From Salipiger sp. H15 (GTDB lineage: Bacteria > Pseudomonadota > Alphaproteobacteria > Rhodobacterales > Rhodobacteraceae): 64,000 nucleotides of DNA. The position numbers and the translations under genes were made by a program. The stretch lies in contig NZ_CP123385.1 in the NCBI RefSeq assembly GCF_040409955.1, forward strand, positions 1,285,501-1,349,500, given 5' to 3'. This document shows positions 1 to 14,450 of the stretch, in pieces. The notes beneath the pieces were generated by a model. It was given only the letters and a program-made list of their open reading frames with translations. It made no database searches and had not been told where the DNA came from. Every line of letters begins with the position of its first letter. The stretch's first letter is position 1.

Positions 1-131
1 TCTCGGCGGTCGCGGCGGCCGAAGAGCTCGAGGAGACCGCCAGGCTGCTCGTCGCGCCGCGAGGTCAGAGGGTGCGGCGGCTGTCCGGCGCCGAGGTGCA
101 GGACCTCAAAGACCGCTTCGGTACGATATGA
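1..131 (+). CDS. Class II aldolase/adducin-family protein, C-terminal end only
   Basis: An open frame enters from the left edge (first full codon at 3) and stops at 129-131. The visible 42 residues begin SAVAAAEELEETARLL and end DLKDRFGTI. This acidic helix followed by a basic stretch and a closing RFG resembles the tail of class II aldolase/epimerase proteins of the OtnC or fuculose-phosphate aldolase type, which cleave or decarboxylate phosphorylated sugar acids in the cytoplasm. The metal-binding core lies outside the window, so the family call rests on the tail alone. Its stop overlaps the next start (ATGA), which indicates one operon. Confidence 0.5.
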   Translation, partial: SAVAAAEELEETARLLVAPRGQRVRRLSGAEVQDLKDRFGTI

Positions 132-1165
132 CCCGGTTTGACCTCGGTGAAGCCCTGAGCGCGCTGGCAACTCTGGCGGTCGCGCTTGCCGCCGGCTGGG
201 TTCTGTCGCTCACCGGGCTGCCGCTGAGCTGGCTTCTTGGCGCGATGCTGACGATGATCGTCGCGTCGCCGGCCAAGCTTCCCGCCGTCCTGCCGCTGCC
301 GGTCATGCCTTGGGTCCGCGCGGCGGTGGGGACCATGCTCGGCGCGTCGATCTCGGCGGGGCTCTGGCACCAGCTGGGCCAGTGGTGGGTCTCGCTGGTC
401 ATCATGTTCGGGGTCATGGCGCTTGGCGGGGTGATCAACTTCACGCTGCTGCGGCGGTTGTTCCACCTGCCGCGGATGGATGCCGCGCTCTGCGCCATGC
501 CCGGCGGCATCGCCGAGATGATCCTGCTCGGCGAGCAGGCCGGGGCCGACCAGCGCCGCGTCGCGATCACCCACGCGCTGCGCATCGCGCTGTCGATCCT
601 GATCATCCCGCTGTTGGCGAGCCTTGTCTTCGGCATCACCGTCAGCAAGGCGAGCGCGGGTGCGCCGGTGCAGATGACACAGCATGACTGGCTCTGGTTC
701 CTTGGCTGCATCGTCATCGGCGTGGCGGCGGGGCGCTGGACGCGGATCCCGCTGGGCCTGATGCTGGTGCCGCTGGTGATCAGCGCCGTCCTTCATGTCA
801 GCGGCACCTCGGGATTCCACGTGCCGCCCGCGGTCTCGGTGATCGTCCAGGTTATGATCGGCCTCAACGTCGGTGCGCGGTTTCTCGGGACATCGTTGCG
901 GGCGGTGGCCAGGGTCGCGGCGGCCTCGGTTGCGGTGGTCGCTGTGCAGATCGCGCTGGCGCTCGGCTCGGCGGTCCTGCTGAGCACGTTTGGCGGCTGG
1001 GACGCGCTGGCGCTGACGCTCGCCTACTCGCCCGGGGGGCTGGCAGAGATGTCGCTGATTGCGATCGCCATGGGCCGCGAGGTCGCCTTCGTCACCTTCC
1101 ACCACATCCTGCGCGTGCTCTTCTCGCTCTTCCTCGCGCCGCCGCTCCTGAAACGACTTGCATAG
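128..1165 (+). CDS. AbrB-family membrane protein (COG3180, AbrB duplication type)
   Basis: This 345-residue protein is almost entirely hydrophobic, with about ten membrane segments. Two related halves can be seen: the first has LSWLLGAMLTM and CAMPGGIAEMILLGEQAG, and the second has LALTLAYSPGGLAEMSLIAIAMG. The repeated PGG-AEM motif is typical of the AbrB duplication family. Despite its historical regulator name, the family looks like an inner-membrane transporter of unknown substrate. It starts in the stop codon of the upstream aldolase fragment, so the two are probably translationally coupled and may share a sugar-acid catabolic operon. No DNA-binding domain is seen. Confidence 0.8.
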   Translation: MTRFDLGEALSALATLAVALAAGWVLSLTGLPLSWLLGAMLTMIVASPAKLPAVLPLPVMPWVRAAVGTMLGASISAGLWHQLGQWWVSLVIMFGVMALGGVINFTLLRRLFHLPRMDAALCAMPGGIAEMILLGEQAGADQRRVAITHALRIALSILIIPLLASLVFGITVSKASAGAPVQMTQHDWLWFLGCIVIGVAAGRWTRIPLGLMLVPLVISAVLHVSGTSGFHVPPAVSVIVQVMIGLNVGARFLGTSLRAVARVAAASVAVVAVQIALALGSAVLLSTFGGWDALALTLAYSPGGLAEMSLIAIAMGREVAFVTFHHILRVLFSLFLAPPLLKRLA

Positions 1166-1652: not shown

Positions 1653-2795
1653 TTACTCGGTACCGGTCAGCTCGCGTATCTCGACCGCGCGGCGCTCGGT
1701 GATCGAGCGTTGCGCGGCGAGACCCATCAGCACCGCCCACTTCCCATCGGCAAGCGAGACATCGGGCGTGCTGCGCGCGCCGCGCACCAGCTCGAGGAAG
1801 CCGCGGTGCTGGTAGAAGGTCGAGCCGTTGTGGTCGCCGGCCTCGAGGATGGTGGGATCGACCGGGATCTCTCGCACCTCGGGGCCCTTCGGCTCGCGCG
1901 GCGAGACGATGACCTGCGGCACCGGCGGCGCGCCCAGATGCGCCGGCCAGAAGCGGCCCGGCCCCGGCACCAGCGCCTCGATCTTGCCCTTGGGGCCGAC
2001 CGCCGAGATCTCTTCCTGGTAGCGCGAGCCCTCGGCGAACATGCACAGCTCGAGCATGGCGCGCACGCCGCTCTCGAACTCGACGATGACATAGCCGTGG
2101 TCGAAGATATCGGGCGTCTCGCCGGCGTAGGTCTCGTCGAGGTGGTTCGCCGCCTGACCGCCCATCGCCATCACCCGCACCGGGTCGGACTTCAGCGCCA
2201 GCCGCATGAGGTCGAAGAAATGGCAGCACTTCTCGACGAAGGTGCCGCCGGTGAAACGGTTGAAGCGGTTCCAGTCTCCGACCTTCTCGAGGAAGGGGAA
2301 GCGGTGCTCGCGGATGGTCAGCATCTTCACGCCGCCGGTGGCCGCCTCGGCCTCTTCCAGCAGCTTCGCGACGGGCGGCATGTAGCGGTATTCCATCGCC
2401 ACCCAGACCGGCGCGGGGTAGCTCGCGGCAAAGGCGTCGATGGCGGCGGCATGCGCGGGGTCGGTGAAGAGCGGCTTTTCCACCAGCACGGGCAGGGGGC
2501 GCTTGCCGGCGATGGCCTGCAACTGCTCGACGTGGCGGAAGTTCGGGCTGGCGATCAGCAGGCAGTCGACCTCGGGCACGTCCAGCAGCGCCTCGATGCT
2601 GTCGACGAAGCGCGCCTCCGGGGCGAACTGCCGCGCATGGGCGCGCATCTCGGCATCGGGCTCGAAGATCGCGCCGATCGCGGTGTTCTCGAGCAGCGCG
2701 ATATTGCGCAGGTGCTCCTGTCCCATCATGCCGCAACCGATGATGCCGTAGGTGATGGTCCGGGTCTCGCTGCGCGCGAGGGTCTGGGTCGTCAT
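1653..2795 (-). CDS. Gfo/Idh/MocA-family NAD(P)-dependent oxidoreductase, candidate NAD-dependent sulfoquinovosidase
   Basis: The protein has 380 residues. The N-terminal Rossmann fold shows YGIIGCGMMGQEH (about 16-28). The family EKP signature is in VLVEKPLF (about 105-112). The C-terminal domain has a GGTFVEKCCHFFDLM motif whose His is the usual catalytic residue. The start has a good GGGAGG site. The family covers sugar dehydrogenases and NAD-dependent glycosidases that work by transient oxidation. A branch called SqgA (GH188) cleaves sulfoquinovosides and occurs in sulfoquinovose gene clusters. The divergent monooxygenase operon makes that role plausible here, but it is an inference; a plain sugar dehydrogenase is the alternative. 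It lies 18 bases downstream of the gntR gene in one leftward operon. Confidence 0.75.
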   Translation of the reverse strand: MTTQTLARSETRTITYGIIGCGMMGQEHLRNIALLENTAIGAIFEPDAEMRAHARQFAPEARFVDSIEALLDVPEVDCLLIASPNFRHVEQLQAIAGKRPLPVLVEKPLFTDPAHAAAIDAFAASYPAPVWVAMEYRYMPPVAKLLEEAEAATGGVKMLTIREHRFPFLEKVGDWNRFNRFTGGTFVEKCCHFFDLMRLALKSDPVRVMAMGGQAANHLDETYAGETPDIFDHGYVIVEFESGVRAMLELCMFAEGSRYQEEISAVGPKGKIEALVPGPGRFWPAHLGAPPVPQVIVSPREPKGPEVREIPVDPTILEAGDHNGSTFYQHRGFLELVRGARSTPDVSLADGKWAVLMGLAAQRSITERRAVEIRELTGTE

Positions 2796-2813
2796 TGGGG
2801 ATTCCTCCTCCCT

Positions 2814-3539
2814 TCAGATGAGGCGCTGGACGTAGAGCGCCTTTTGCGTGTCGTACCAGGTGCGCGAGAACTCGACCGCCTCGGCGCCCTGCGCCCAGGA
2901 GAGGCGCTCGATGTAGGCAGTGGTGGTGCCGGGGGCGAGCGGGAAGGCTTCCGGGGCCCAGTCGGGCACCTTGCCGATTCCCACTCGGTCCTCGGCGCGG
3001 GTGATCCAGAGCTTCAGCGCGCGCTTGTAGGTGAGGTAGAGCGAGTCCTGCACCATCTCGCGCGGGACCTGGCCCGCGCCGCCATCTAGCCAGATCTCCT
3101 CGACCGCGATGACCACGTCGTCGAGGTAGCGCAGGCGGCGGAACCGGGTGCCGTGGTCGGATGTGCCATAGGCGGGCTGGTGCGAATCCTTGGGCAGGTA
3201 GTCGGCCGAGAGGATGTCGGCGGTGGGCAGGCCGCCACCGCCCTCGGCGTGCTCGAGCCGGAACATCGAGTAGACCGAATCGACCTCGCCGCCGGCGCGG
3301 ACGTAGTTGCCCGAGCCCTGACGGCGCTCGAGCAGGCCCTTTTTCTCGAGCTCCGACAGCGCCTTGCGCAGGGTGCGGACGGTCGTGCCATGGGCCTTCG
3401 CGAAGTCGCGCTCGGGCGGCAGCTTCTGCCCGTCGACGAGCCGGCCGGCAGCGATGTCGCGGATCACCAGCTCGCTGATCTGCATGTAGATCGGCAGCGC
3501 GTCGGGCCGGTGGGCGGAATTCCTGTTTTTTTCCTGCAT
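2814..3539 (-). CDS. GntR-family (HutC/UTRA type) transcriptional regulator
   Basis: The protein has 241 residues. Residues about 17-85 form a GntR winged helix (LPPERDFAKAHGTTVRTLRKALSEL then LLERRQGSGNYVR), and residues about 105-235 form a UTRA-type effector domain. It starts at an ATG behind a GGAGG site. It is the first gene of a leftward operon with the oxidoreductase and is divergent from the monooxygenase-TRAP operon, so it is the obvious local regulator. The effector is probably the imported sugar derivative or a phosphorylated product; this is inferred from position only. Confidence 0.85.
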   Translation of the reverse strand: MQEKNRNSAHRPDALPIYMQISELVIRDIAAGRLVDGQKLPPERDFAKAHGTTVRTLRKALSELEKKGLLERRQGSGNYVRAGGEVDSVYSMFRLEHAEGGGGLPTADILSADYLPKDSHQPAYGTSDHGTRFRRLRYLDDVVIAVEEIWLDGGAGQVPREMVQDSLYLTYKRALKLWITRAEDRVGIGKVPDWAPEAFPLAPGTTTAYIERLSWAQGAEAVEFSRTWYDTQKALYVQRLI

Positions 3540-3588
3540 GTTTCCGCCTCCCCCTGCGGATGCTGCGAACGAAAAAATTGATACACCA

Positions 3589-3602
3589 TTGATCTACATC
3601 AA
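3589..3602. promoter_or_regulatory. Perfect FNR-type palindrome in the divergent gntR/monooxygenase promoter
   Basis: TTGAT-CTAC-ATCAA is an exact inverted repeat and matches the FNR/FnrL consensus TTGAT-N4-ATCAA. It sits 50 bases from both the gntR start and the monooxygenase start. A further TTGAT half lies at 3578-3582, so the repeat could instead be a GntR operator. Confidence 0.55.
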
Positions 3603-3651
3603 AGACGGGGGTAGTCAAAGGGAAAGTTCGGAGGTTTTCAGGGAGGAAACC

Positions 3652-4806
3652 ATGACGGTCGTACCCGTTACATCCGCCGATCTCGACGCGGTCGAGGTGG
3701 CCTGGTTCTCGGCGCTCTGCTCGGATGACTACCAGTTCCTCGGTGTGCCGGACGGCGATCTGCGCTCGTCCTGGGACCACTGCTCGGAGATCGTGAAGAC
3801 CGCCGAGGCGCAGGGCTTCGGCAACATCCTGTGCCCCTCGTCCTACCAGGTCGGGCAGGACACGCTGAGCTTCGTCGCGGGCTGCGCACCGATCACCCGC
3901 GCGATCAACCTGCTGGCCGCCGTGCGCTGCGGCGAGATGCAGCCGATCATGCTGGCGCGCACCATCGCGACGCTCGACCACATGCTGCAGGGGCGGCTGA
4001 CGGTGAACATCATCTCGTCGGACTTCCCGGGCGAGAAGGCCGACAGCCAGTTCCGCTACCAGCGCTCGCGCGAGGTGGTCGAGATCCTCAAGCAGGCCTG
4101 GAACCGCGACGAGATCAACTACGAGGGCGAGGTCTACAACTTCACCGGCCTCACCACCGATCCCGCCAAGCCCTACCAGAAGGGCGGGCCGATGCTCTAT
4201 TTCGGCGGCTACTCGCCCGATGCGCTGGATCTCTGCGGCCAGCACTGCGACGTCTACCTGATGTGGCCGGAAAAGACCGAGGACATTGCCGGGCGGATGA
4301 TGGCGGCCAACGCCGCCGCCGAGCGCCACGGGCGCACGCTCGACTACGGCTTCCGCAGCCACGTGATCGTCCGCGACACCGAGGCCGAGGCCAAGGAGTA
4401 TGCCCGCTTCATCGCCAGCAAGCTCGACGACGAGCTGGGGCAGGCGATCCGCGAGCGGGCGCTCGACGCGGGCAGCCTCGGCGTCAGCCATCAGGCGCGC
4501 AACCGTGAGCTGGCGGACCTCGAGGGCTACATCGAGCCCAACCTCTGGACCGGCATCGGCCGGGCGCGCTCGGGCTGCGGCGCGGCGATCGTCGGCTCGA
4601 CCGACCAGGTGCTGAGCAAGCTCGAAGAGCTGAAGAACATGGGCATCCGCGCCTTCGTGCTCTCGGGCTACCCGCATATCGAGGAGGCCGAGCATTTCGG
4701 CTCGCGCGTGCTGCCGCAGCTGAAGACCTGCCAGCTCAACCAGGCCTGGGGCCGCGTTCCGCAAACCCTTCCGCAGACGCCGCTCGGCGCAGGAGACCGC
4801 CGCTGA
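3652..4806 (+). CDS. LLM-class FMNH2-dependent monooxygenase, SsuD-like (candidate sulfoquinovose monooxygenase)
   Basis: The protein has 384 residues and starts at the ATG behind GGGAGGAAAC; the frame stays open upstream, but that ATG gives the usual family N-terminus. Luciferase-like barrel features include the early AEAQGFGNILCPSSY, then PIMLARTIATLDHMLQGRLTVNIIS, and a closing GIGRARSGCGAAIVGS typical of alkanesulfonate monooxygenases. Such enzymes use reduced flavin and O2 to break a C-S bond, giving sulfite and an aldehyde. The next two genes encode an aldo-keto reductase and a flavin reductase. This order matches SmoC-SmoB-SmoA of the sulfo-SMO pathway, where sulfoquinovose gives 6-oxoglucose. 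The substrate is inferred from context, not from residues. Confidence 0.8.
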   Translation: MTVVPVTSADLDAVEVAWFSALCSDDYQFLGVPDGDLRSSWDHCSEIVKTAEAQGFGNILCPSSYQVGQDTLSFVAGCAPITRAINLLAAVRCGEMQPIMLARTIATLDHMLQGRLTVNIISSDFPGEKADSQFRYQRSREVVEILKQAWNRDEINYEGEVYNFTGLTTDPAKPYQKGGPMLYFGGYSPDALDLCGQHCDVYLMWPEKTEDIAGRMMAANAAAERHGRTLDYGFRSHVIVRDTEAEAKEYARFIASKLDDELGQAIRERALDAGSLGVSHQARNRELADLEGYIEPNLWTGIGRARSGCGAAIVGSTDQVLSKLEELKNMGIRAFVLSGYPHIEEAEHFGSRVLPQLKTCQLNQAWGRVPQTLPQTPLGAGDRR

Positions 4807-5720
4807 TGGATACCGCAAGCGATTTCAACCACGACCGCGTGGCGATTGCCGAGGGGCTGACCTTCTCGCGGCTGGTCTACGGCATGTGGCGGATCGGCGA
4901 TGACAGCGATACCACGGCGGGCCACGTGCGTGCCAAGATCGACGCCTGCCTCGCGCAGGGGATCACCACGCTCGATCAGGCCGACATCTATGGCGAGTAC
5001 ACCGCCGAGGCGATCCTCGGGCAGGCGTTCAAGGCCGACCCGGCGCTGCGCCGGAAGGTCGAGCTGGTCACCAAGTGCGACATCGTCGCGCCCTGCGGCA
5101 AATACGCGGACGTCGCCTGCAAGCACTACGACACGTCGAAGGCGCACATCGAGGCCTCGGTCGAAAGCTCGCTGCGCGCGCTCGGCACCGATTACATCGA
5201 CCTGCTGCTGATCCACCGTCCCGATCCGCTGATGGACCACGAGGAGACCGGCGCGGCGCTCGACGGGCTGGTCAAGGCGGGCAAGATCCGCGCCGCCGGG
5301 GTGTCGAACTTCCGGCCCTGGGACTTTGACCTCCTGCAAAGCGCGATGGAGACGAGGCTCGCCACCAACCAGATCGAGATCTCGCTGGCCCGGATCGAGC
5401 CCTTCACCGATGGCGATCTGGCGTTCCACCAGCGCCGCAAGGATCCGGTGATGGCCTGGTCGCCGCTCGGCGGCGGCAGCCTGATGACGGGCGAGAGCGC
5501 GCTGACCCGGCGCATGGATGCGATGGCCGCCGAGTTCGGTGTCGACCGCGCCGCGATTGCCGTCGCCTTCCTTCTGCGCCACCCGGCGCGCATCCTGCCG
5601 GTTCTGGGCACCAATTCGCTCGAGCGCATCGCGAAAATCTCGGACGCCCGCAAGGTCGCGCTGAGCCGCGTGCAATGGTTCCAGCTCTACGAGGCGGCGC
5701 TCGGCCGCGAGGTGGCGTGA
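4806..5720 (+). CDS. Aldo/keto reductase (candidate SmoB-like 6-oxoglucose reductase)
   Basis: This 304-residue protein is a single AKR barrel. The catalytic tetrad can be read as Asp and Tyr in TLDQADIYGEY (about 56-66), Lys in VTKCDI and His in LLIHRPDP. The C-terminal NADPH-binding part is LPVLGTNSLERI. The start overlaps the monooxygenase stop (TGATG), so the pair is probably co-translated. In sulfo-SMO clusters the equivalent enzyme reduces the aldehyde released by the monooxygenase to glucose. General relatives (the YdhF type) reduce many aldehydes, so the substrate call depends on the neighbours. Confidence 0.85.
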   Translation: MDTASDFNHDRVAIAEGLTFSRLVYGMWRIGDDSDTTAGHVRAKIDACLAQGITTLDQADIYGEYTAEAILGQAFKADPALRRKVELVTKCDIVAPCGKYADVACKHYDTSKAHIEASVESSLRALGTDYIDLLLIHRPDPLMDHEETGAALDGLVKAGKIRAAGVSNFRPWDFDLLQSAMETRLATNQIEISLARIEPFTDGDLAFHQRRKDPVMAWSPLGGGSLMTGESALTRRMDAMAAEFGVDRAAIAVAFLLRHPARILPVLGTNSLERIAKISDARKVALSRVQWFQLYEAALGREVA

Positions 5721-6226
5721 TGCAGATGGCGCAGCCCCAAAGCTTCGTGCCCGACCCGGCCAACGGGCGGGCGCTGCGCGACGCCTTCGGGCTCTTCGCC
5801 ACGGGGGTGACCATCGTCACCGCCTGCGGCCCCGAGGGCTGCGCCGCGATCACCGCCAACAGCTTCGCGTCGGTGTCGATGGATCCGCCGCTGGTGCTCT
5901 GGTCGCCGGCGCGCAGCTCCAGCCGCTTCGCGATTTTTGCCGGGGCCGAGCATTACGCGATCCACGTGCTTTCCGCCGACCAGCAGGAGCTGGCCTGGGC
6001 GGTCGCGAAGGACGGCGCGGCGCTGCTCGGCACCGCGCTCGGGCGCAACGCCAATGGCGTGCCGATCCTCGAGCAATGCCTCGCGCGGTTCGACTGCCGC
6101 CGCCACGCGGTGCACGAGGCCGGGGATCACGCCATCGTCGTCGGCGAGGTGCTGCATGCCACCATGCAACAGGGTGATCCGCTGGCCTTCTTCGGCGGGC
6201 GGGTCGCAAGGGTCGAGGTCAACTGA
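5720..6226 (+). CDS. Flavin reductase family protein (candidate FMN reductase partner of the monooxygenase)
   Basis: The protein has 168 residues and is a split-barrel flavin reductase. Motifs include FATGVTIVTACGPEGCAAITANSFASVSMDPPLVLW at about 20-55 and HAIVVGEVLHATMQQGDPLAFFGGRVARV at the end, which is the HpaC/ActVB/SmoA layout. The chosen ATG overlaps the aldo-keto reductase stop (TGATG); it leaves no long N-terminal extension. Its role would be to supply FMNH2, using NAD(P)H, to the monooxygenase two genes upstream. It completes the three-enzyme oxidative desulfonation set. Confidence 0.85.
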   Translation: MQMAQPQSFVPDPANGRALRDAFGLFATGVTIVTACGPEGCAAITANSFASVSMDPPLVLWSPARSSSRFAIFAGAEHYAIHVLSADQQELAWAVAKDGAALLGTALGRNANGVPILEQCLARFDCRRHAVHEAGDHAIVVGEVLHATMQQGDPLAFFGGRVARVEVN

Positions 6227-6275
6227 CGGCGCGCCGCCACCCTGGAGGAGGGCGCGGCATGACGGGGAGGAGAGA

Positions 6276-6863
6276 ATGGTGCTACTCGACGGGCTGATCC
6301 GGCCGCTGTCCCGGGTCAATGACGTGCTGCTGAAGATCGGCCGCGGCATCGGTGTCGTCGCCATCGCGGTGATGGTGGCGGTGACCCTCGTGCAGGTGTT
6401 CTGCCGCTACGTGCTGGGCAACGCGCTGCCCTGGCCGGACGAGGCCGCGCGCTTCTGCATGCTGTGGATGACCGGGCTGATGGCGCCGACCGCCTTCCGC
6501 CGCGGCGGCTTCGTGGCGATCGACATCCTGCCCTCGATGCTGCCGCGCCGGCCGGCGATCCTTCTGAACCTCGTGCTGCTGGCGATCAGCCTCGTGGTGC
6601 TGGTCGTCGCGCTGCAGATCGGCTGGAAGGAGGTCACCGGGCTCGGCGGGCGCTTCGCCTCGGCCTCGCTCTACTTGCCGACGGCGCTCGACTTCAGCAC
6701 CTGGTACCGGGTGCCGCGCAGCTGGATGATGCTCTCGCTTCTCGTCGGGCTGGTGCTGCTGGTCCTCGTGAACATCGAACTCATCCTCCGCAACATCGCC
6801 GAGCTCTGCTCGGACCACGCGCTCGACGCGCTGCCGCAGCCCAAGACGCAGGGAGCCGAATGA
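6276..6863 (+). CDS. TRAP transporter small permease (DctQ family), system 1
   Basis: The protein has 195 residues with four hydrophobic segments. The family motif is in the first half: VFCRYVLGNALPWPDEAARFCMLWMTGLMAPTAFRRG. A GGGAGGAGAGA site precedes the ATG. DctQ packs against the large DctM subunit in the inner membrane in TRAP importers. It follows the flavin reductase by 49 bases and is followed by dctM one base later, so it belongs to the monooxygenase operon and probably imports that operon's substrate. Confidence 0.9.
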   Translation: MVLLDGLIRPLSRVNDVLLKIGRGIGVVAIAVMVAVTLVQVFCRYVLGNALPWPDEAARFCMLWMTGLMAPTAFRRGGFVAIDILPSMLPRRPAILLNLVLLAISLVVLVVALQIGWKEVTGLGGRFASASLYLPTALDFSTWYRVPRSWMMLSLLVGLVLLVLVNIELILRNIAELCSDHALDALPQPKTQGAE

Positions 6864-6864
6864 C

Positions 6865-8154
6865 ATGCTGATCTGGTTCCTTCCGCTCTTCCTCGTCTTC
6901 CTGATGGTCGGCCTGCCGGTGTTCTTCGGCCTGCTCGCCGCGCCGGGCATCCTGCTCTTTCTCAACGGGCAGGAGCGCGATCTCACGCTGCTCTACCGCA
7001 ACCTCTACAACGGCATGGACAGCTTCCCGCTGATGGCGATCCCGTTCTTCATGCTGGCGGGCGAGATCATGAACCGCGGCGGCATCACCCACCGCCTCGT
7101 CGAGTTCAGCCAGGCCTTCATGGGCCACCTGCGCGGCGGGCTTGCGCATGTGAACGTGCTCTCGTCGATGCTCTTCGCGGGGCTCTCGGGCTCGGCGGTG
7201 GCGGATACCTCGGCGCTCGGCTCCATGCTGATCCCGGCGATGGAAGAGCAGGGCTACACCCGCCGCTTCGCCGCCGCGATCACCGCCGCGAGCTCTGTGA
7301 TCGGGCCGATCATCCCGCCCTCGGGGATCATGATCATCTACGCCTACGTGATGGGCGAGAGCGTCGCCGCGCTGTTCCTCGCCGGGCTGGTGCCGGGGAT
7401 CCTCGTCGGCGTCGGGCTGATGATCCTCATCAAGGTCATGGCCAACCGCTACGACTTCCCCGTCGCCTCGCGCAGGTACAGCTGGGGCGAGCGCGGGCAG
7501 GCGAGCCTCAAGGCCTTCTTCCCGCTGCTGACCCCGGTGATCATCCTCGGCGGCATCCTCGCGGGGGTCTTCACGCCCACCGAGGCGGCGGCGGTGGCGG
7601 TGTTCTACGCGCTCATCATCAGCCTCTTCGTGCTGAAGACCATGCGCGTGTCGGAACTGCCGGACGTGCTGGGCCGGGCTGGGCTGACGTCGGCGGTGGT
7701 GCTGCTGCTGGTCGGCGCGGCCATGTCGTTCAAGACCGTGGTGTCGCTCTCGCACGCGCCGCAGGCCATGGCGGATTTCATCCTGTCGCTGACCGAGAAC
7801 CCGCTGCTGTTGCTCTTCCTGATCAATCTGCTGCTCTTCGCGGTGGGCATGTTCCTCGACGCGGGCCCGGCGATCATCATCCTCGGCCCGATCCTGGGCC
7901 CGGTGTTCATCGACATGGGCGTCGACAGTGTGCACTTCGCCATCATCATGTGCGTGAACCTGACGGTGGGGCTGGCGACGCCGCCCATGGGGCTGGTGCT
8001 CTTCGTCGCCTCCGCCGTCTCGGGCGAGAGGGTGACCACCATCGCCCGCGCCATCGTGCCGTTCCTCGCGGTCGAGATCCTGGTGATCTTCCTGATCACC
8101 TATTTCCCCGCGATTTCCATGACGATCCCGCGCCTGACCGGGTTCGCGAACTGA
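6865..8154 (+). CDS. TRAP transporter large permease (DctM family), system 1
   Basis: The protein has 429 residues with about twelve membrane segments. Diagnostic stretches are MLFAGLSGSAVADTSALGSMLIPAMEEQGY, ITAASSVIGPIIPPSGIMIIY and LTVGLATPPMGLVLFVAS. These mark the ion-coupled elevator subunit of TRAP importers. It starts one base after the dctQ stop. It works with the downstream periplasmic binding protein. Symport is usually with Na+ in marine members (family knowledge). Confidence 0.93.
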   Translation: MLIWFLPLFLVFLMVGLPVFFGLLAAPGILLFLNGQERDLTLLYRNLYNGMDSFPLMAIPFFMLAGEIMNRGGITHRLVEFSQAFMGHLRGGLAHVNVLSSMLFAGLSGSAVADTSALGSMLIPAMEEQGYTRRFAAAITAASSVIGPIIPPSGIMIIYAYVMGESVAALFLAGLVPGILVGVGLMILIKVMANRYDFPVASRRYSWGERGQASLKAFFPLLTPVIILGGILAGVFTPTEAAAVAVFYALIISLFVLKTMRVSELPDVLGRAGLTSAVVLLLVGAAMSFKTVVSLSHAPQAMADFILSLTENPLLLLFLINLLLFAVGMFLDAGPAIIILGPILGPVFIDMGVDSVHFAIIMCVNLTVGLATPPMGLVLFVASAVSGERVTTIARAIVPFLAVEILVIFLITYFPAISMTIPRLTGFAN

Positions 8155-8186
8155 CAAGAAAATCCAGAGCTATCAGGGAGGATAAC

Positions 8187-9245
8187 ATGCTCGGGAAGAA
8201 ACTCACGCTGGCGGCAACGCTGGCCCTCACGGCGGCCTTCGCCACCCATGCCATGGCGAAGGAGTACACGATCCGCGCCGTCGCCAACTCGAACGAGAAC
8301 GACGAGGACTACGACGGGCTCGAGGTCTTCAAGTCCTATGTCGAGAGCGCCTCGAACGGCGCCATCGGCGTCGAGATCTACATGGGCACGCAGCTTTGCT
8401 CGAACGGCGCGGAATGCCTTCAGGGCGTCGCCGACGGCTCGATCGACGTCTACATCTCGACCTCGGGCGGCGCGGCGGGGCTCTTCCCCTACGTGCAGGT
8501 GCTGGACCTGCCGTACCTGATGCAGGACGACCGGGTCGCCGAGAAGGTGCTGTCGGGCGACTTCACCCGCACCATGCGCGCGATGGCGCTCGAGGACTCG
8601 GGCGGCATGATCCGGCTGATGACCATCGGCAACACCGGCGGCTGGCGCAACTTCGCCAACACCAAGCACCGGGTGCAGACGCCGGGCGACCTCAAGGGCA
8701 TGAAGATCCGCACCGTGGTCGCCGACCTGCCGCAGGAACTGGTGCGCGCGCTCGACGCCGCGCCGACGCCGATTCCGTGGCCCGAGCTCTTCACCTCGCT
8801 GCAGACCGGCGTGGTCGAGGGCACCAAGAACGGCATCACCGACATCATGTCGATGAAGTTCCCCGAGGCCGGGCTGAAATACGTCACCCTCGACGGCCAC
8901 GCCTACATGGGCGCGCTGTGGTGGATGTCGAACGAGAAGTTCCTGGCGATGCCCGAGGACATGCGCCGCGTGGTGGTCGACGGCTTCTACCAGCTGCAGC
9001 AGGCGACCTTCGCCTCGCCCAAGCGCAAGTCGATCCCGGCCTACAAGGAGTTCGCCGCGGCGGGCGGCGAACTCTACGTGCCCTCGCCCGAGGAGAAGCA
9101 GGCCTTTGCCGAGGCCGCGCAGCCGGTCTACGCGTGGTTCACCGAGAACGTCGAAGGCGGGCAGGAGATCTTCGACGCCATGCAGGCAGCGGTGAAGACC
9201 GCGACCGAGGAGCTTGACGCCGAGCGCGCGAGCGACATCGAGTAA
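8187..9245 (+). CDS. TRAP transporter periplasmic substrate-binding protein (DctP family), system 1
   Basis: The protein has 352 residues. An N-terminal signal peptide ends near THAMA-KE (about residue 25). DctP features are the AECLQGVADGSIDVYISTSGG stretch, TPGDLKGMKIRT and PWPELFTSLQTGVVEGTKNG, where the Arg of the KIRT segment normally pairs with a ligand carboxylate or other anionic group. The ATG has a GGGAGGATAAC site. Position in the monooxygenase operon suggests that the ligand is the sulfonate-bearing substrate. A terminator-like hairpin follows. Confidence 0.93.
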   Translation: MLGKKLTLAATLALTAAFATHAMAKEYTIRAVANSNENDEDYDGLEVFKSYVESASNGAIGVEIYMGTQLCSNGAECLQGVADGSIDVYISTSGGAAGLFPYVQVLDLPYLMQDDRVAEKVLSGDFTRTMRAMALEDSGGMIRLMTIGNTGGWRNFANTKHRVQTPGDLKGMKIRTVVADLPQELVRALDAAPTPIPWPELFTSLQTGVVEGTKNGITDIMSMKFPEAGLKYVTLDGHAYMGALWWMSNEKFLAMPEDMRRVVVDGFYQLQQATFASPKRKSIPAYKEFAAAGGELYVPSPEEKQAFAEAAQPVYAWFTENVEGGQEIFDAMQAAVKTATEELDAERASDIE

Positions 9246-9260
9246 GCCCAGACGATCGCG

Positions 9261-9284
9261 GGCGCGCCCCATGCCGGGCGCGCC
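9261..9284 (+). terminator. Hairpin after TRAP system 1
   Basis: GGCGCGCCC and GGGCGCGCC form a 9-bp stem around CATGCC, 15 bases after the binding-protein stop. There is no T tract. It could attenuate transcription into the downstream exporter rather than end it. Confidence 0.5.
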
Positions 9285-9368
9285 TGTCCCGGCGCGGCCC
9301 TCCATGGGGCGCACCGGATGGATGCAGAAGACCGCAGGGGCGGCACGGCCCCGCATCGAGGACAGGAC

Positions 9369-10394
9369 ATGAGCGCACTCACCGCCACTCTCAGCGACCC
9401 CCGCCGCCTTATCGCCCGCGCGAAGATCCTCGCGCCCGGCACGGCGCTGGCCATCGTGCTGGCCATGGCGGCGCAGTTCCTGTCGAACCATTACGGCGCG
9501 CCGGTCATGCTCATGGCGATCCTGCTCGGCATCCCGTTCCATTTCCTGTCGGAGCACGAGAACACCGGCCCCGGCATCACCTTCGCCGCCAAGGCGCTGC
9601 TGCGCATGGGCGTGGCACTGCTCGGCCTCAGGGTCTCGATCGACATGGTGCGGCAGATCGGCTGGGGCTTCGTGCTGATCATCGGGCTCTGCGTCGCGGT
9701 GACCATTCTCGGCTCGATCCTGCTGGCGCGCTTCGTCGGTAAGGACCGTGCCTTCGGCTTCCTCACCGGCGGCTCGGTGGCGATCTGCGGCGCCTCGGCG
9801 GCGATGGCGATCGCGTCGATCCTGCCGCAGCGCGACACCGCCGAGCGGGATCTTTCGTTCACCGTGATCTCGGTCACCGCCTTCTCGACCGTGGCGATGA
9901 TCGTCTATCCCATCCTCGCCCAGTCCCTCGGGCTGAACGAGCACCTGACCGGGCTCTTCCTCGGCGGCACGATCCACGACGTGGCGCAGGTGGTCGGCGC
10001 GGGCTACTCGGTCTCGGACGAAACCGGCGACATCGCGACCGTGGTCAAGCTGATCCGGGTGACCATGCTGGCGCCGGTGGTGCTGATCGGCGCGCTGGCC
10101 ATGCGCCGCCACGCCCCGGCGGCCGAGGCGCGCCCGCCGCTGCTTCCGGGCTTCGTCGCGGCCTTCCTCGTGCTCGCTGCGCTCAATTCCTTCCACCTCG
10201 TGCCCGAGGTTGTGCTCGAGCCTGCCTCGACCCTGTCGCGCGCGCTCTTGGTGACGGCGGTGGCGGCGGTGGGGATGAAGACCTCGCTGGCAAAGCTGGC
10301 CGACGTCGGCGGCACGGCGATCGCGATGCTGGCGGTGCAGACCGCCGTGCTGGCGGCGCTGGTGCTGATCCCGCTCATGCTCGGGCTGGTCTGA
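9369..10394 (+). CDS. YeiH/PSE1-family putative sulfate (or sulfite) exporter
   Basis: The protein has 341 residues and about ten membrane segments. Family signatures are LLRMGVALLGLRVS, TGGSVAICGASAAMAIA and FLGGTIHDVAQVVGAGY, which define the COG2855/UPF0324 putative sulfate exporter family. The chosen ATG follows GAGGACAGGAC. It lies 123 bases after the TRAP binding protein on the same strand. In a desulfonation cluster an exporter for the toxic sulfite product is expected. Known sulfo-SMO clusters often use a TauE-type protein for this, so this would be a family replacement. Confidence 0.82.
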   Translation: MSALTATLSDPRRLIARAKILAPGTALAIVLAMAAQFLSNHYGAPVMLMAILLGIPFHFLSEHENTGPGITFAAKALLRMGVALLGLRVSIDMVRQIGWGFVLIIGLCVAVTILGSILLARFVGKDRAFGFLTGGSVAICGASAAMAIASILPQRDTAERDLSFTVISVTAFSTVAMIVYPILAQSLGLNEHLTGLFLGGTIHDVAQVVGAGYSVSDETGDIATVVKLIRVTMLAPVVLIGALAMRRHAPAAEARPPLLPGFVAAFLVLAALNSFHLVPEVVLEPASTLSRALLVTAVAAVGMKTSLAKLADVGGTAIAMLAVQTAVLAALVLIPLMLGLV

Positions 10395-11258: not shown

Positions 11259-14200
11259 GTGACTCGACTGTTCTCCGACCGCAACCGCCCGGTCCACATG
11301 GGGCCGTTCCCGCTCGAGACGCTGGCGCGGGCGGAGGAGGCCGACCTTGCGCAGGTCCCGCCGATGCGGCCCGTGGCCTTCGCCCGCCCCGACGCGCCCG
11401 AGAGCATCGTCAACGCCATGCGCGAGTACCAGGCGATCCTCGACACGATCCGCGGCGGCCTCACCAACCCGGTGCCCTCGGAGATCCCCGGCGACCCGAA
11501 TGAGCGGGCCAACCACCTGAAGGCCTTCGGCTATTTCAACGACGCGGCGATGGTCGGCATCTGCCGCCTGACCGAGAAGATGCTCCTCGCCGAGCCCATT
11601 CGCAACCCAGACATCGACCGGCTCGGCCAGGACATCCTCACCCGGCAGACCAAGACACTGGCCTCCGGCATCGACGTCATCATGGCCGACCTCAGGGACA
11701 GCATCGCCGCGCCGCCCGAGCCGATCACCACCCATAGCCACGCGATTGTCTACCTCTACGAGAACCCGCGCGAGCCGGGCGAGGAGGAGGAGGGCTGCGA
11801 ATGGCTGAAGGATGCGCTGGCGCAGCGCGCCTGCCTGCGCGCCTCGGAGACGGCCAACGTCATCGCCAACTACATCCGCCTGCTCGGCCATGACGCCAAG
11901 GCGCATTCGCGCGCCGCGTCGGACGTGGATCTCAACCGGCTGACCGTCGCCTCGGGCCTCGCGCGGGTCCGGGGCGGGCAGCTTGTCGCGCCCTTCCTCG
12001 GAACGCGGTTCGGCGTCGGTGTCGTCACCTGCCGGCTCGAGCTGGCCTGCGACCGCCCGCTCGCCGACCAGCCGGGCTCGGGCGGGCTGGCGTGGCGCGT
12101 CGGCAGGGGCGTGCAGCGCTCGGCGCTGAACGGCAACCCCTACGACCGCCGCCGCTTCGTCGACGGCGCGCATTCCTTCGAAAAGCTGAAGCGGGTGGAC
12201 GCGCCCACGACCTTCATCGACGAGGCGCGCGTCGCCCGCGTGCCGAAGCGCGCCGACATGTTCGCCCGCGCGCAGTTCGGTGACATGGGCAAGGCGCTGC
12301 AGGAAGGGGCCAAGGGCGGGCACTACGCGCGCAAGGCGGCCCCCTCCTACGCGCAGCGGCGTGCGCTCGGGGCCTTCGTGCTGACCCAGGACGGGGCGCC
12401 TAACCCCGCCGGGCCGCGCCCCTCGGACGCCGCGCGCAATGCCGCCAACATCAAGGCGGCGAGCTACTTCCTTGGCGCCGATGCCGTCGGCATCTCGCGC
12501 TGCCCCGACTGGGCGTGGTACTCGCACGACGCGCTCGGCACGCCTATCGACCCGCCGCATGACCAGGCGATCAGCATGATCATCGACCAGGGCTTCGAGA
12601 CGATGGAGGGCGCGAGCGGCGACGACTGGATCAGCGTCGCGCAGTCGATGCGTGCCTACCTGCGCTTCTCATTGCTCGGCGGGGTGATAGCGCAACAGAT
12701 CCGCAACCTCGGCTACAGCGCCAAGGCGCACACCGTCATGGACGGCGAGGTGCTGCAGCCGCCGCTCCTGCTGCTCTCGGGTCTCGGCGAGGTGAGCCGG
12801 ATCGGCGAGGTGATCCTCAACCCCTATCTCGGGCCGCGGCTCAAGTCCGGCGTGGTGACCACCGACATGCCGCTGGCGCATGACCAGCCCATCGACTTCG
12901 GCCTGCAGAGCTTCTGCGAGAGCTGCAACAAATGCGCGCGCGAATGCCCCTCGGGGGCGATCACCGCGGGGCCGAAGCTGATGTTCAACGGCTACGAGAT
13001 CTGGAAGTCCGACAGCCAGAAATGCGCGACCTACCGGATCACCGCCAAGGGCGGCGCGATGTGCGGGCGCTGCATGAAGACCTGCCCTTGGAACCTCGAG
13101 GGGCTGTTCGCCGAGCGGCCGTTCCGCTGGGCCGCGATGAACCTCCCGAAGGCCGCGCCGCTGCTGGCCCGGCTCGACGACGCGGTCGGCAACGGCGGGC
13201 TCAACGCGGCGAAGAAATGGTGGTGGGACATCGAGCTCGAGGAGGACGGCGCCTACCGCCCGACGCGGCATCCGGTCAACCGCCGGGACCTGCAGCCCGG
13301 GCTGAAGCTGCGCCCCGAGGACCAGACGCTGGCGGTCTATCCCGCGCCGCTCGCGCCGCATCCCTGGCCCTATCCCTTCCCGATGGACCGCGAGAAGGGG
13401 ATCGAGGCCTACCAGGCGATGGTCACCGCCGCCGAATACAAGCTACGCCTGCAAGAGGGCCGGACCGACCACCTGCACGAGTATTCCCTGCCCGCCGATG
13501 CGCCGGTGATCCGGGTCGAGGTCGCAAAGGCGCAGGCCATGACCGAGGGCGTGACGAAATACGAGTTCCGCAGCCTCGACGGCTCGGACCTGCCGGAATG
13601 GACCGCCGGGGCGCATCTCGACATCGTGGTCGCGCCGGAATTCCTGCGGCAATACTCGATGAGCGGCGATCCCGCCGACCGGACGCGCTACCAGATCGCC
13701 GTGCTGCGCGAGGATGCGGGGCGCGGCGGCTCGAAGCTGATGCACCGGATCTTCACGCCGGGGCGGAAGGTCTTCATCTCGCGGCCGATCAACCATTTCC
13801 CGCTCGACGAGAGTGCGCCCATGTCGCTGCTCATGGGCGGCGGCATCGGGATCACGCCGATGATCGCCTTTGCCCATCGGCTGTACGCCCTGGGCCGGGA
13901 TTTCGCGCTGCACTATTCCTGCGCGCGGCGGGCCGATGCCGGGTTCCTCGACGATCTCGCGGCGATGCCCTGGGCCGGGAAGGTGCAGCTGCATGTCTCT
14001 GGCGAGGGGACGCGGGCGGACCTCGGCGCGATCATGGGCCGCTACGAGCCGGGCTGGCACGTCTACACCTGCGGGCCCGACCGCTACATGCAGGGCGTCA
14101 TGGCGGCGGCCGAGCGCGCGGGCTTCCCCGACGAGGCGCGGCACCTCGAGTATTTCTCGGTCCCCGAGCAGCCCGAGTACGAGAACCACCCCTTTGCCCT

Positions 14201-14450
14201 GCGTCTGAAGGACGGGCGCGAGCTCTTGGTGCCCGAGGACCAGAGCGCCGCCGAGGTGCTGCGCGGGGCCGGCATCCCGATCGACCTCAAGTGCGACGAC
14301 GGCATCTGCGGCGTCTGCAAGTGCGGCGTCCGGTCGGGCGAGATCGAGCACCGCGACTTCGTGCTGTCGAAGGCACAGCAGCAGGGCGCGATGATCACCT
14401 GCCAGAGCCGCGCGGCAAAGCCCGGCGGGGTGATCGAGCTCGACCTCTAG
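11259..14450 (+). CDS. Self-sufficient reductive dehalogenase fused to an FMN/[2Fe-2S] reductase
   Basis: The protein has 1063 residues and a GTG start behind GGGGAGG. Residues 1 to about 700 are a cobalamin-dependent RdhA with two 4Fe-4S sites: C553-x2-C556-x2-C559-x3-C563P and C589-x12-C602-x2-C605-x3-C609P. Y467, K529 and R593 have the same spacing as Tyr426, Lys488 and Arg552 recalled for NpRdhA of Nitratireductor. Residues about 730-960 form a flavin reductase (RQYS at 797-800, MGGGIG at 859-864). Residues about 970-1063 form a phthalate-dioxygenase-reductase-type ferredoxin (C1012, C1017, C1020, C1048). There is no Tat signal, so the enzyme should be cytoplasmic, NAD(P)H-driven and possibly oxygen tolerant, like BhbA-type catabolic enzymes. 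The organohalide is unknown. No membrane anchor gene (rdhB) or cobalamin gene is adjacent. Confidence 0.92.
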   Translation: MTRLFSDRNRPVHMGPFPLETLARAEEADLAQVPPMRPVAFARPDAPESIVNAMREYQAILDTIRGGLTNPVPSEIPGDPNERANHLKAFGYFNDAAMVGICRLTEKMLLAEPIRNPDIDRLGQDILTRQTKTLASGIDVIMADLRDSIAAPPEPITTHSHAIVYLYENPREPGEEEEGCEWLKDALAQRACLRASETANVIANYIRLLGHDAKAHSRAASDVDLNRLTVASGLARVRGGQLVAPFLGTRFGVGVVTCRLELACDRPLADQPGSGGLAWRVGRGVQRSALNGNPYDRRRFVDGAHSFEKLKRVDAPTTFIDEARVARVPKRADMFARAQFGDMGKALQEGAKGGHYARKAAPSYAQRRALGAFVLTQDGAPNPAGPRPSDAARNAANIKAASYFLGADAVGISRCPDWAWYSHDALGTPIDPPHDQAISMIIDQGFETMEGASGDDWISVAQSMRAYLRFSLLGGVIAQQIRNLGYSAKAHTVMDGEVLQPPLLLLSGLGEVSRIGEVILNPYLGPRLKSGVVTTDMPLAHDQPIDFGLQSFCESCNKCARECPSGAITAGPKLMFNGYEIWKSDSQKCATYRITAKGGAMCGRCMKTCPWNLEGLFAERPFRWAAMNLPKAAPLLARLDDAVGNGGLNAAKKWWWDIELEEDGAYRPTRHPVNRRDLQPGLKLRPEDQTLAVYPAPLAPHPWPYPFPMDREKGIEAYQAMVTAAEYKLRLQEGRTDHLHEYSLPADAPVIRVEVAKAQAMTEGVTKYEFRSLDGSDLPEWTAGAHLDIVVAPEFLRQYSMSGDPADRTRYQIAVLREDAGRGGSKLMHRIFTPGRKVFISRPINHFPLDESAPMSLLMGGGIGITPMIAFAHRLYALGRDFALHYSCARRADAGFLDDLAAMPWAGKVQLHVSGEGTRADLGAIMGRYEPGWHVYTCGPDRYMQGVMAAAERAGFPDEARHLEYFSVPEQPEYENHPFALRLKDGRELLVPEDQSAAEVLRGAGIPIDLKCDDGICGVCKCGVRSGEIEHRDFVLSKAQQQGAMITCQSRAAKPGGVIELDL

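Follow-up and report, generated by a model that had tools for sequence, protein, structure and literature searches.

The island at positions 1653–10394 of the window (the whole 64,000-nt stretch of Salipiger sp. H15 DNA analyzed here) is very likely, judging from sequence comparison, a sulfolytic sulfoquinovose (SQ) operon of the sulfoquinovose monooxygenase (sulfo-SMO) type, in which the tripartite ATP-independent periplasmic (TRAP) transporter DctPQM would take up SQ or its glycerol glycoside (SQGro). We favor this reading because the monooxygenase lies near the solved chains 7olf and 7oh2 and far from SsuD, the glycosidase SqgA retains all of the active-site residues checked, and the host genome lacks a match to glycoside hydrolase family 31 (GH31). 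An earlier note on this DNA had listed the same nine gene families and proposed a sulfo-SMO function; Pfam confirmed the nine families, with all frames intact, and comparison of the SmoC, SmoB, and SqgA sequences supports the function with high confidence. The same TRAP transporter is an uptake cassette that relatives place before either a sulfo-SMO or a sulfo-Embden-Meyerhof-Parnas-like (sulfo-EMP-like) pathway. The features of the island are listed below, with functions as predicted and families as assigned with Pfam and NCBIfam profiles.

1653–2795 (−): sqgA, predicted NAD-dependent sulfoquinovosidase of family GH188, 380 amino acids (aa); Pfam GFO_IDH_MocA
2814–3539 (−): GntR-family regulator with a UTRA domain, divergent from smoC; Pfam GntR and UTRA above cut-off
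3589–3602 (.): candidate operator TTGATCTACATCAA, a near-palindrome in the regulator–smoC gap that begins 63 bases before the smoC ATG
3652–4806 (+): smoC, predicted FMNH2-dependent sulfoquinovose monooxygenase, 384 aa; Pfam Bac_luciferase
4806–5720 (+): smoB, predicted aldo-keto reductase (6-dehydroglucose to glucose); Pfam Aldo_ket_red, 411 bits to 7bbz/7bby
5720–6226 (+): smoA, predicted flavin reductase; Pfam Flavin_Reduct
6276–6863 (+): dctQ, TRAP small membrane subunit; Pfam DctQ
6865–8154 (+): dctM, TRAP large membrane subunit, short form, 429 aa; Pfam DctM, TIGR00786 above cut-off
8187–9245 (+): dctP, TRAP solute-binding protein; Pfam DctP, AlphaFold model, linkage to SmoC
9369–10394 (+): putative YeiH/PSE-family exporter; Pfam Cons_hypoth698

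All nine reading frames are open, and each starts with ATG. sqgA and the regulator gene diverge from smoC across a 112-base gap, smoC–smoB and smoB–smoA overlap by one base (the smoA start overlaps the smoB stop), and dctQ, dctM, dctP, and the exporter gene continue on the smoC strand. There is no ATP-binding cassette (ABC) importer among the island genes, DctQMP being the only importer there. The window sits in a 1.75-Mb contig of the 6.1-Mb genome.

Enzymes of the probable sulfoquinovose island

The cluster holds a sulfo-SMO enzyme set, i.e., an SmoC-type monooxygenase, an SmoB-type aldo-keto reductase, and a flavin reductase. The closest solved relatives of the monooxygenase were 7olf (75% identity, 672 bits) and 7oh2 (74% identity, 655 bits), both of which we take to be SmoC, compared with 189 bits for 7jv3, presumably MsuD, and 178 bits for SsuD (1m41). 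In a 42-row tree the window's protein grouped with 7olf and 7oh2, away from 7jv3 and 1m41; the grouping with non-sulfonate LLM enzymes that the earlier note had named as refuting its proposal was thus not seen. The same tree contained a separate 11-row branch from other families of the class (~48 to ~55% identity); among all 19 classifiable SmoC-like loci outside the family, 13 had an SqgA homologue and 15 an SmoB homologue. SmoB scored 411 bits against 7bbz/7bby (we assume 7bbz to be SmoB) versus 222 bits for the next different chain, and the best NCBIfam match of SmoA was FerA at 203 bits, under the cut-off of 260.

Using phmmer, the window's SqgA scored 558 bits against 8zn9 (65.7% identity) and 374 bits against ArSqgA, 8qc3 (50.8% identity). 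The reference residues of ArSqgA are the contacts R166, L170, and K172, together with K107, Y136, E189, H193, H321, and a nearby Glu (164 in our numbering, written as 163 in PMC10755693), and according to PMC10755693 they lie by the sugar and the sulfonate or in the reaction centre of that enzyme. All nine are retained in the window (K107, Y136, E163, R165, L169, K171, E188, H192, and H322), in line with the earlier suggestion that the Gfo/Idh enzyme is an SqgA with sulfonate-binding residues. By eye, SqgA has no signal peptide and is probably cytoplasmic; if so, the glycoside must enter the cell whole. GH31 (PF01055) had no match in the host genome, while the control was positive in 6 of 14 well-known genomes.

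Together, these genes suggest a route in which DctPQM would bring in SQ and SQGro using a cation gradient, and SqgA, with NAD as a cycling cofactor, would cleave SQGro in the cytoplasm. SmoA would provide reduced flavin, with which SmoC and O2 would cut the C–S bond to give sulfite and 6-dehydroglucose, and SmoB would reduce the latter to glucose. The SqgA, SmoA, SmoC, and SmoB reactions have been shown for homologues and are predicted here, for SqgA from its conserved residues. The YeiH/PSE protein would export sulfite, or sulfate following oxidation, and the GntR regulator may occupy TTGATCTACATCAA until an SQ-derived ligand binds.

A TRAP importer proposed to serve two pathways

DctP, DctQ, and DctM are encoded together, which is the composition of a TRAP transporter. 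We surveyed 394 genomes of the bacterial family (approximately one per genus) and found DctP homologues in 144, forming a sharp group with 142 at 66 to 100% identity and two at 51 to 52%. SmoC was present in 164 of the genomes at a threshold of E 1e-100. Both proteins occurred in 109 genomes, of which 99 had a listed SmoC place and were thus testable for distance; in 92 of these, no more than 10 kb separated DctP from SmoC, and the other seven had the two genes on separate contigs.

Of the 35 DctP genomes without an SmoC match at this threshold, 23 carried DctP in a sulfo-EMP-like cluster. Homologues of SQ isomerase, PfkB kinase, and SqgA were present in all 23 sets and a LacD-like aldolase in 21, with DctP only 50% identical in one set. 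Seven more of the 35 had SmoB, SmoA, or a partial SmoC, and the remaining five, left unassigned, had a di-haem cytochrome (four genomes, one also with SqgA and one on a 3.6-kb contig) or a kinase match alone (one genome). In the DctP tree (97 rows, a quick method with Shimodaira-Hasegawa-like approximate likelihood ratio [SH-aLRT] support alone), the sulfo-EMP-like rows were scattered: their label needs 13 changes, against a shuffled mean of 20.9, and at least seven are forced by starred (well-supported) branches. Since DctP identity between the sulfo-EMP-like loci and the window (68 to 79% in all but one) exceeds SqgA identity (45 to 54%), the importer seems to have been swapped more readily than the glycosidase. 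The placement of one TRAP before two pathways with a common first substrate points to SQ or SQGro as the likely cargo, and it speaks against the failure of DctP to bind SQ derivatives that the earlier note had set as a further refuting condition.

The AlphaFold model of DctP (25 sequences) had a predicted local distance difference test score (pLDDT) of 79.6, with residues 1–22 and 209–223 under 50. The model matched TRAP binding proteins; among the matches listed, 4ovs ranked first by E-value and 4p47 by TM-score, the isethionate protein IseP and the sugar-acid protein DctPAm were near the top, and none exceeded 27% identity. Across 94 DctP homologues (residues numbered with an additional first residue), R155, R176, and N216, common to 4p47 and 4nq8, were kept in at least 97%; W154, D220, W246, and Y287 were also kept in the homologues and are absent from both structures. 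DctM varied in length, with 48 of 95 frames at 400–459 residues and 37 at 480–539 (long form). Aligned to the window copy (6865–8154), two long forms (L030 and L125) had an insert of ~60 residues with hydrophobic stretches between the halves.

Several observations weigh against an SQ operon served by this importer. Fifty-five of the 164 SmoC genomes had no DctP match, and 31 of 74 sampled SmoC loci (74 retrieved of 150 listed SmoC places) lacked this TRAP in the retrieved stretch, some of which ended at a contig edge; the TRAP is therefore not indispensable. TRAP binding proteins usually bind carboxylates, the DctP pocket was modelled without a ligand, and residues 209–223 are poorly predicted. 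The DctP tree is weakly resolved, with 16 of 93 inner branches starred. The isomerase of the sulfo-EMP-like sets had a single NCBIfam match, sulfoquinovose isomerase, at 279 bits versus a cut-off of 700, and the kinase and aldolase had family-level matches only, so the name of that pathway is inferred. Finally, a literature search on the codes 7olf, 7oh2, and 7bbz gave no paper dealing with them, and the SmoC and SmoB identities of these chains are our own assumption.

The strongest alternative, which we consider unlikely, is that the enzymes degrade SQ and the TRAP merely shares their locus while carrying a sugar acid, sulfolactate, isethionate, or a C4 acid. The nearest structures are indeed TRAP binding proteins whose ligands are sialic acid, sugar acids, isethionate, and dicarboxylates, and a number of SmoC loci lack this TRAP, with ABC genes following SmoC in some of them. 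However, a different cargo fits poorly with the linkage in 92 of 99 genomes, the recurrence of the TRAP in 23 loci of the sulfo-EMP-like type, and the repeated changes of label on the tree, and 1653–10394 has no second importer gene, yet a cytoplasmic SqgA needs its glycoside delivered. It is still less probable that the operon serves mainly another 6-sulfosugar, e.g., sulfofucose, whose catabolism is known in a Paracoccus (PMC12421959, in part), because all three of SqgA, SmoC, and SmoB closely resemble SQ-pathway enzymes, SqgA shows no change at the SQ-contact residues that were checked, and the alternative sulfo-EMP-like clusters match the SQ isomerase model. A third reading, in which the monooxygenase scavenges sulfur from alkanesulfonates in general or from methanesulfonate, draws on how the PDB names its closest chains (methanesulfonate sulfonatase and alkanesulfonate monooxygenase) and is scarcely credible given the distance from SsuD in score and tree and the presence of a glycosidase and a sulfur exporter, both unexpected in a scavenging operon.

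Distribution, companion genes, and regulation

Among the 74 sampled loci, the genes found near SmoC encoded GntR (70), SmoB (70), SqgA (67), SmoA (62), DctP (43), and YeiH (4). We also examined 80 named loci, the best of 576 confirmed as ranked by SmoC closeness to the window, some from organisms also in the sample; here SqgA was near SmoC in 78, DctP in 66, and YeiH in 27, and SqgA, GntR, SmoB, SmoA, and DctQMP all surrounded SmoC in 65. As some locus stretches stop at contig edges, absences are upper bounds. By these counts (TRAP in 43 and YeiH in 4 of the 74 loci), the window has the commonest layout of the family plus the less common YeiH/PSE exporter. The earlier note had described a distinct variant with swapped parts; the replacement of ABC by TRAP and of GH31 by GH188 stands, while its rarity was overstated, GH188 lying by SmoC in 67 and this TRAP in 43 of 74 loci, and GH188 in place of GH31 being already published for Roseobacter sulfo-SMO clusters (PMC10755693).

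The same gene order was found on a Salipiger plasmid, the Ruegeria TM1040 megaplasmid (where three genes displace the exporter), and a Rhizobium plasmid; together with the joint occurrence in 65 of 80 named loci, this argues that the gene set is not a chance grouping. Specifically, full clusters are present on plasmids of Salipiger sp. CCB-MM3, Ruegeria sp. TM1040, and, beyond the Roseobacter group, Rhizobium sp. SL42. The Salipiger sp. CCB-MM3 cluster (plasmid unnamed3, NZ_CP014599.1) matches the order of the nine genes including the exporter at 87 to 96% protein identity, and it lies on a 280-kb plasmid, whereas the window's cluster is in a 1.75-Mb contig. In Ruegeria sp. TM1040 (L256:10073-13307), the genes that separate dctP from the exporter gene encode a Dabb-domain protein, a TPR protein on the opposite strand, and a cytochrome of the MauG type. 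SmoC matched 11 plasmid records at 74 to 96% identity and 18 more at 50 to 54%, and DctP matched 11, one of them at 53%. The nearest SmoC proteins were those of Salipiger mangrovisoli and Alloyangia pacifica (97% identity), and 6 of the 20 genomes from the window's genus, this one included, had SmoC.

Where the TRAP was absent, ABC transport genes (two or more on the same strand, 1.5–7 kb after SmoC) were found in 6 of 31 sampled loci and 7 of 14 named loci. Sugar ABC importers of two kinds follow SmoABC in the place of the TRAP (L204:8232-13079 (+) and L070:12733-19265 (+)), one with a GH13 gene; the binding proteins of two ABC systems that follow SmoC in loci without the TRAP had no match to a chain annotated as binding SQ.

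A gene for a di-haem cytochrome of the MauG/CCP family also recurs in these stretches, usually some kb after DctP on the same strand (e.g., L080:15596-17362 (+), L237:7590-9401 (−), and L162:4995-6311 (−)). It was present in 22 of 43 sampled TRAP loci, 41 of 66 named TRAP loci, and 19 of 23 sulfo-EMP-like loci. The window's island has no such gene, and the host encodes a 44%-identical protein ~180 kb away. Literature co-mentioning sulfoquinovose and MauG, in the search made, offered nothing on this subject, judged by title. As a speculative extension, DctPQM might found an SQ/SQGro-specific TRAP family that moves as a cassette between oxidative sulfolysis and sulfoglycolysis, with the cytochrome as a periplasmic enzyme acting on sulfolipid-derived substrates before uptake. 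The idea that the cytochrome stands in for the exporter in sulfite handling was weakened because the cytochrome also accompanies loci of the sulfo-EMP-like type and coexists with the exporter in 5 of 80 named loci.

The exporter matched Pfam Cons_hypoth698 at 217 bits (cut-off 24.5) and NCBIfam TIGR00698 at 139 bits, under the cut-off of 232.6, and its Salipiger homologue is annotated as a putative sulfate exporter. The host genome has two matches above cut-off to PF00174, a molybdopterin oxidoreductase domain that sulfite oxidases contain; the exporter may carry either sulfite or sulfate.

A GntR homologue adjoined SmoC in 70 of the 74 sampled loci, and TTGATCTACATCAA occurred within two mismatches in 34 of the 74 regulator–smoC gaps versus 0.07% of simple shuffles, the gaps being from related sequences and hence not independent. 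By layout, it was found in 30 of the 43 loci with the TRAP and in 4 of the 31 without it. The copy at 3589–3602 is the only perfect one in the 6.1-Mb genome. GTNTANAC, which we take to be the GntR consensus, was rejected as the operator, as 4 of the 183 stretches upstream of smoC contained it, fewer than the mean of 9 after shuffling.

Adjoining the island, the window encodes an AbrB-family (PF05145) membrane protein at 128–1165 (+). At 11259–14450 (+) lies a gene for a 1063-residue protein in which Pfam shows only Fe-S domains (4Fe-4S and C-terminal 2Fe-2S) and which, by eye, presumably resembles a self-sufficient reductive dehalogenase.

Relation to known systems and significance

The cluster is similar to the sulfo-SMO (sulfo-ASMO) system of Agrobacterium tumefaciens in SmoC, SmoB, and flavin-reductase chemistry and in its predicted products, sulfite and glucose. 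A. tumefaciens uses a GH31 sulfoquinovosidase, whereas the window has GH188. Its importer is of the ABC type (PMC9594981, in part), in contrast to the TRAP of the window. GH188 within Roseobacter sulfo-SMO clusters is already published: PMC10755693 describes it as near-universal in bacteria of that clade, in clusters that, like the window's, have SmoC and SqgA and no GH31, and no word beginning with "transport" or "trap" occurs in its main text. IseP (8t9t and 8te9), an isethionate TRAP binding protein, has the same fold as DctP and a sulfonate ligand, but it is 23 to 24% identical to the window's protein and its ligand is a small C2 sulfonate. The sulfo-EMP-like clusters of the same family share the TRAP, GH188, and often the di-haem cytochrome with their sulfo-SMO relatives, while SQ isomerase, PfkB kinase, and LacD-like aldolase replace SmoABC.

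A TRAP importer for SQ was not evident in the literature searched, a partial search that an earlier report may have escaped. Passages pairing sulfoquinovose with TRAP transporters, as far as the excerpts go, concern taurine and sulfolactate, and "trap" in the excerpts of PMC12421959 means a trap column or the trapping of ions. Nor did we find, in the literature searched, the TRAP described as a cassette common to two SQ pathways.

Sulfoquinovose is among the largest organosulfur pools (~10 billion tons per year according to PMC10755693), and the uptake of its glycosides by marine Roseobacter-type bacteria is undescribed in the literature searched. One binding protein, present in 144 of 394 family genomes, offers a testable importer and a possible marker of SQ use that is independent of the downstream pathway. 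In Salipiger sp. H15, a marine-type bacterium, a small set of clustered genes very probably serves to take up and degrade the sulfur-containing sugar of sulfolipid from plants and algae.

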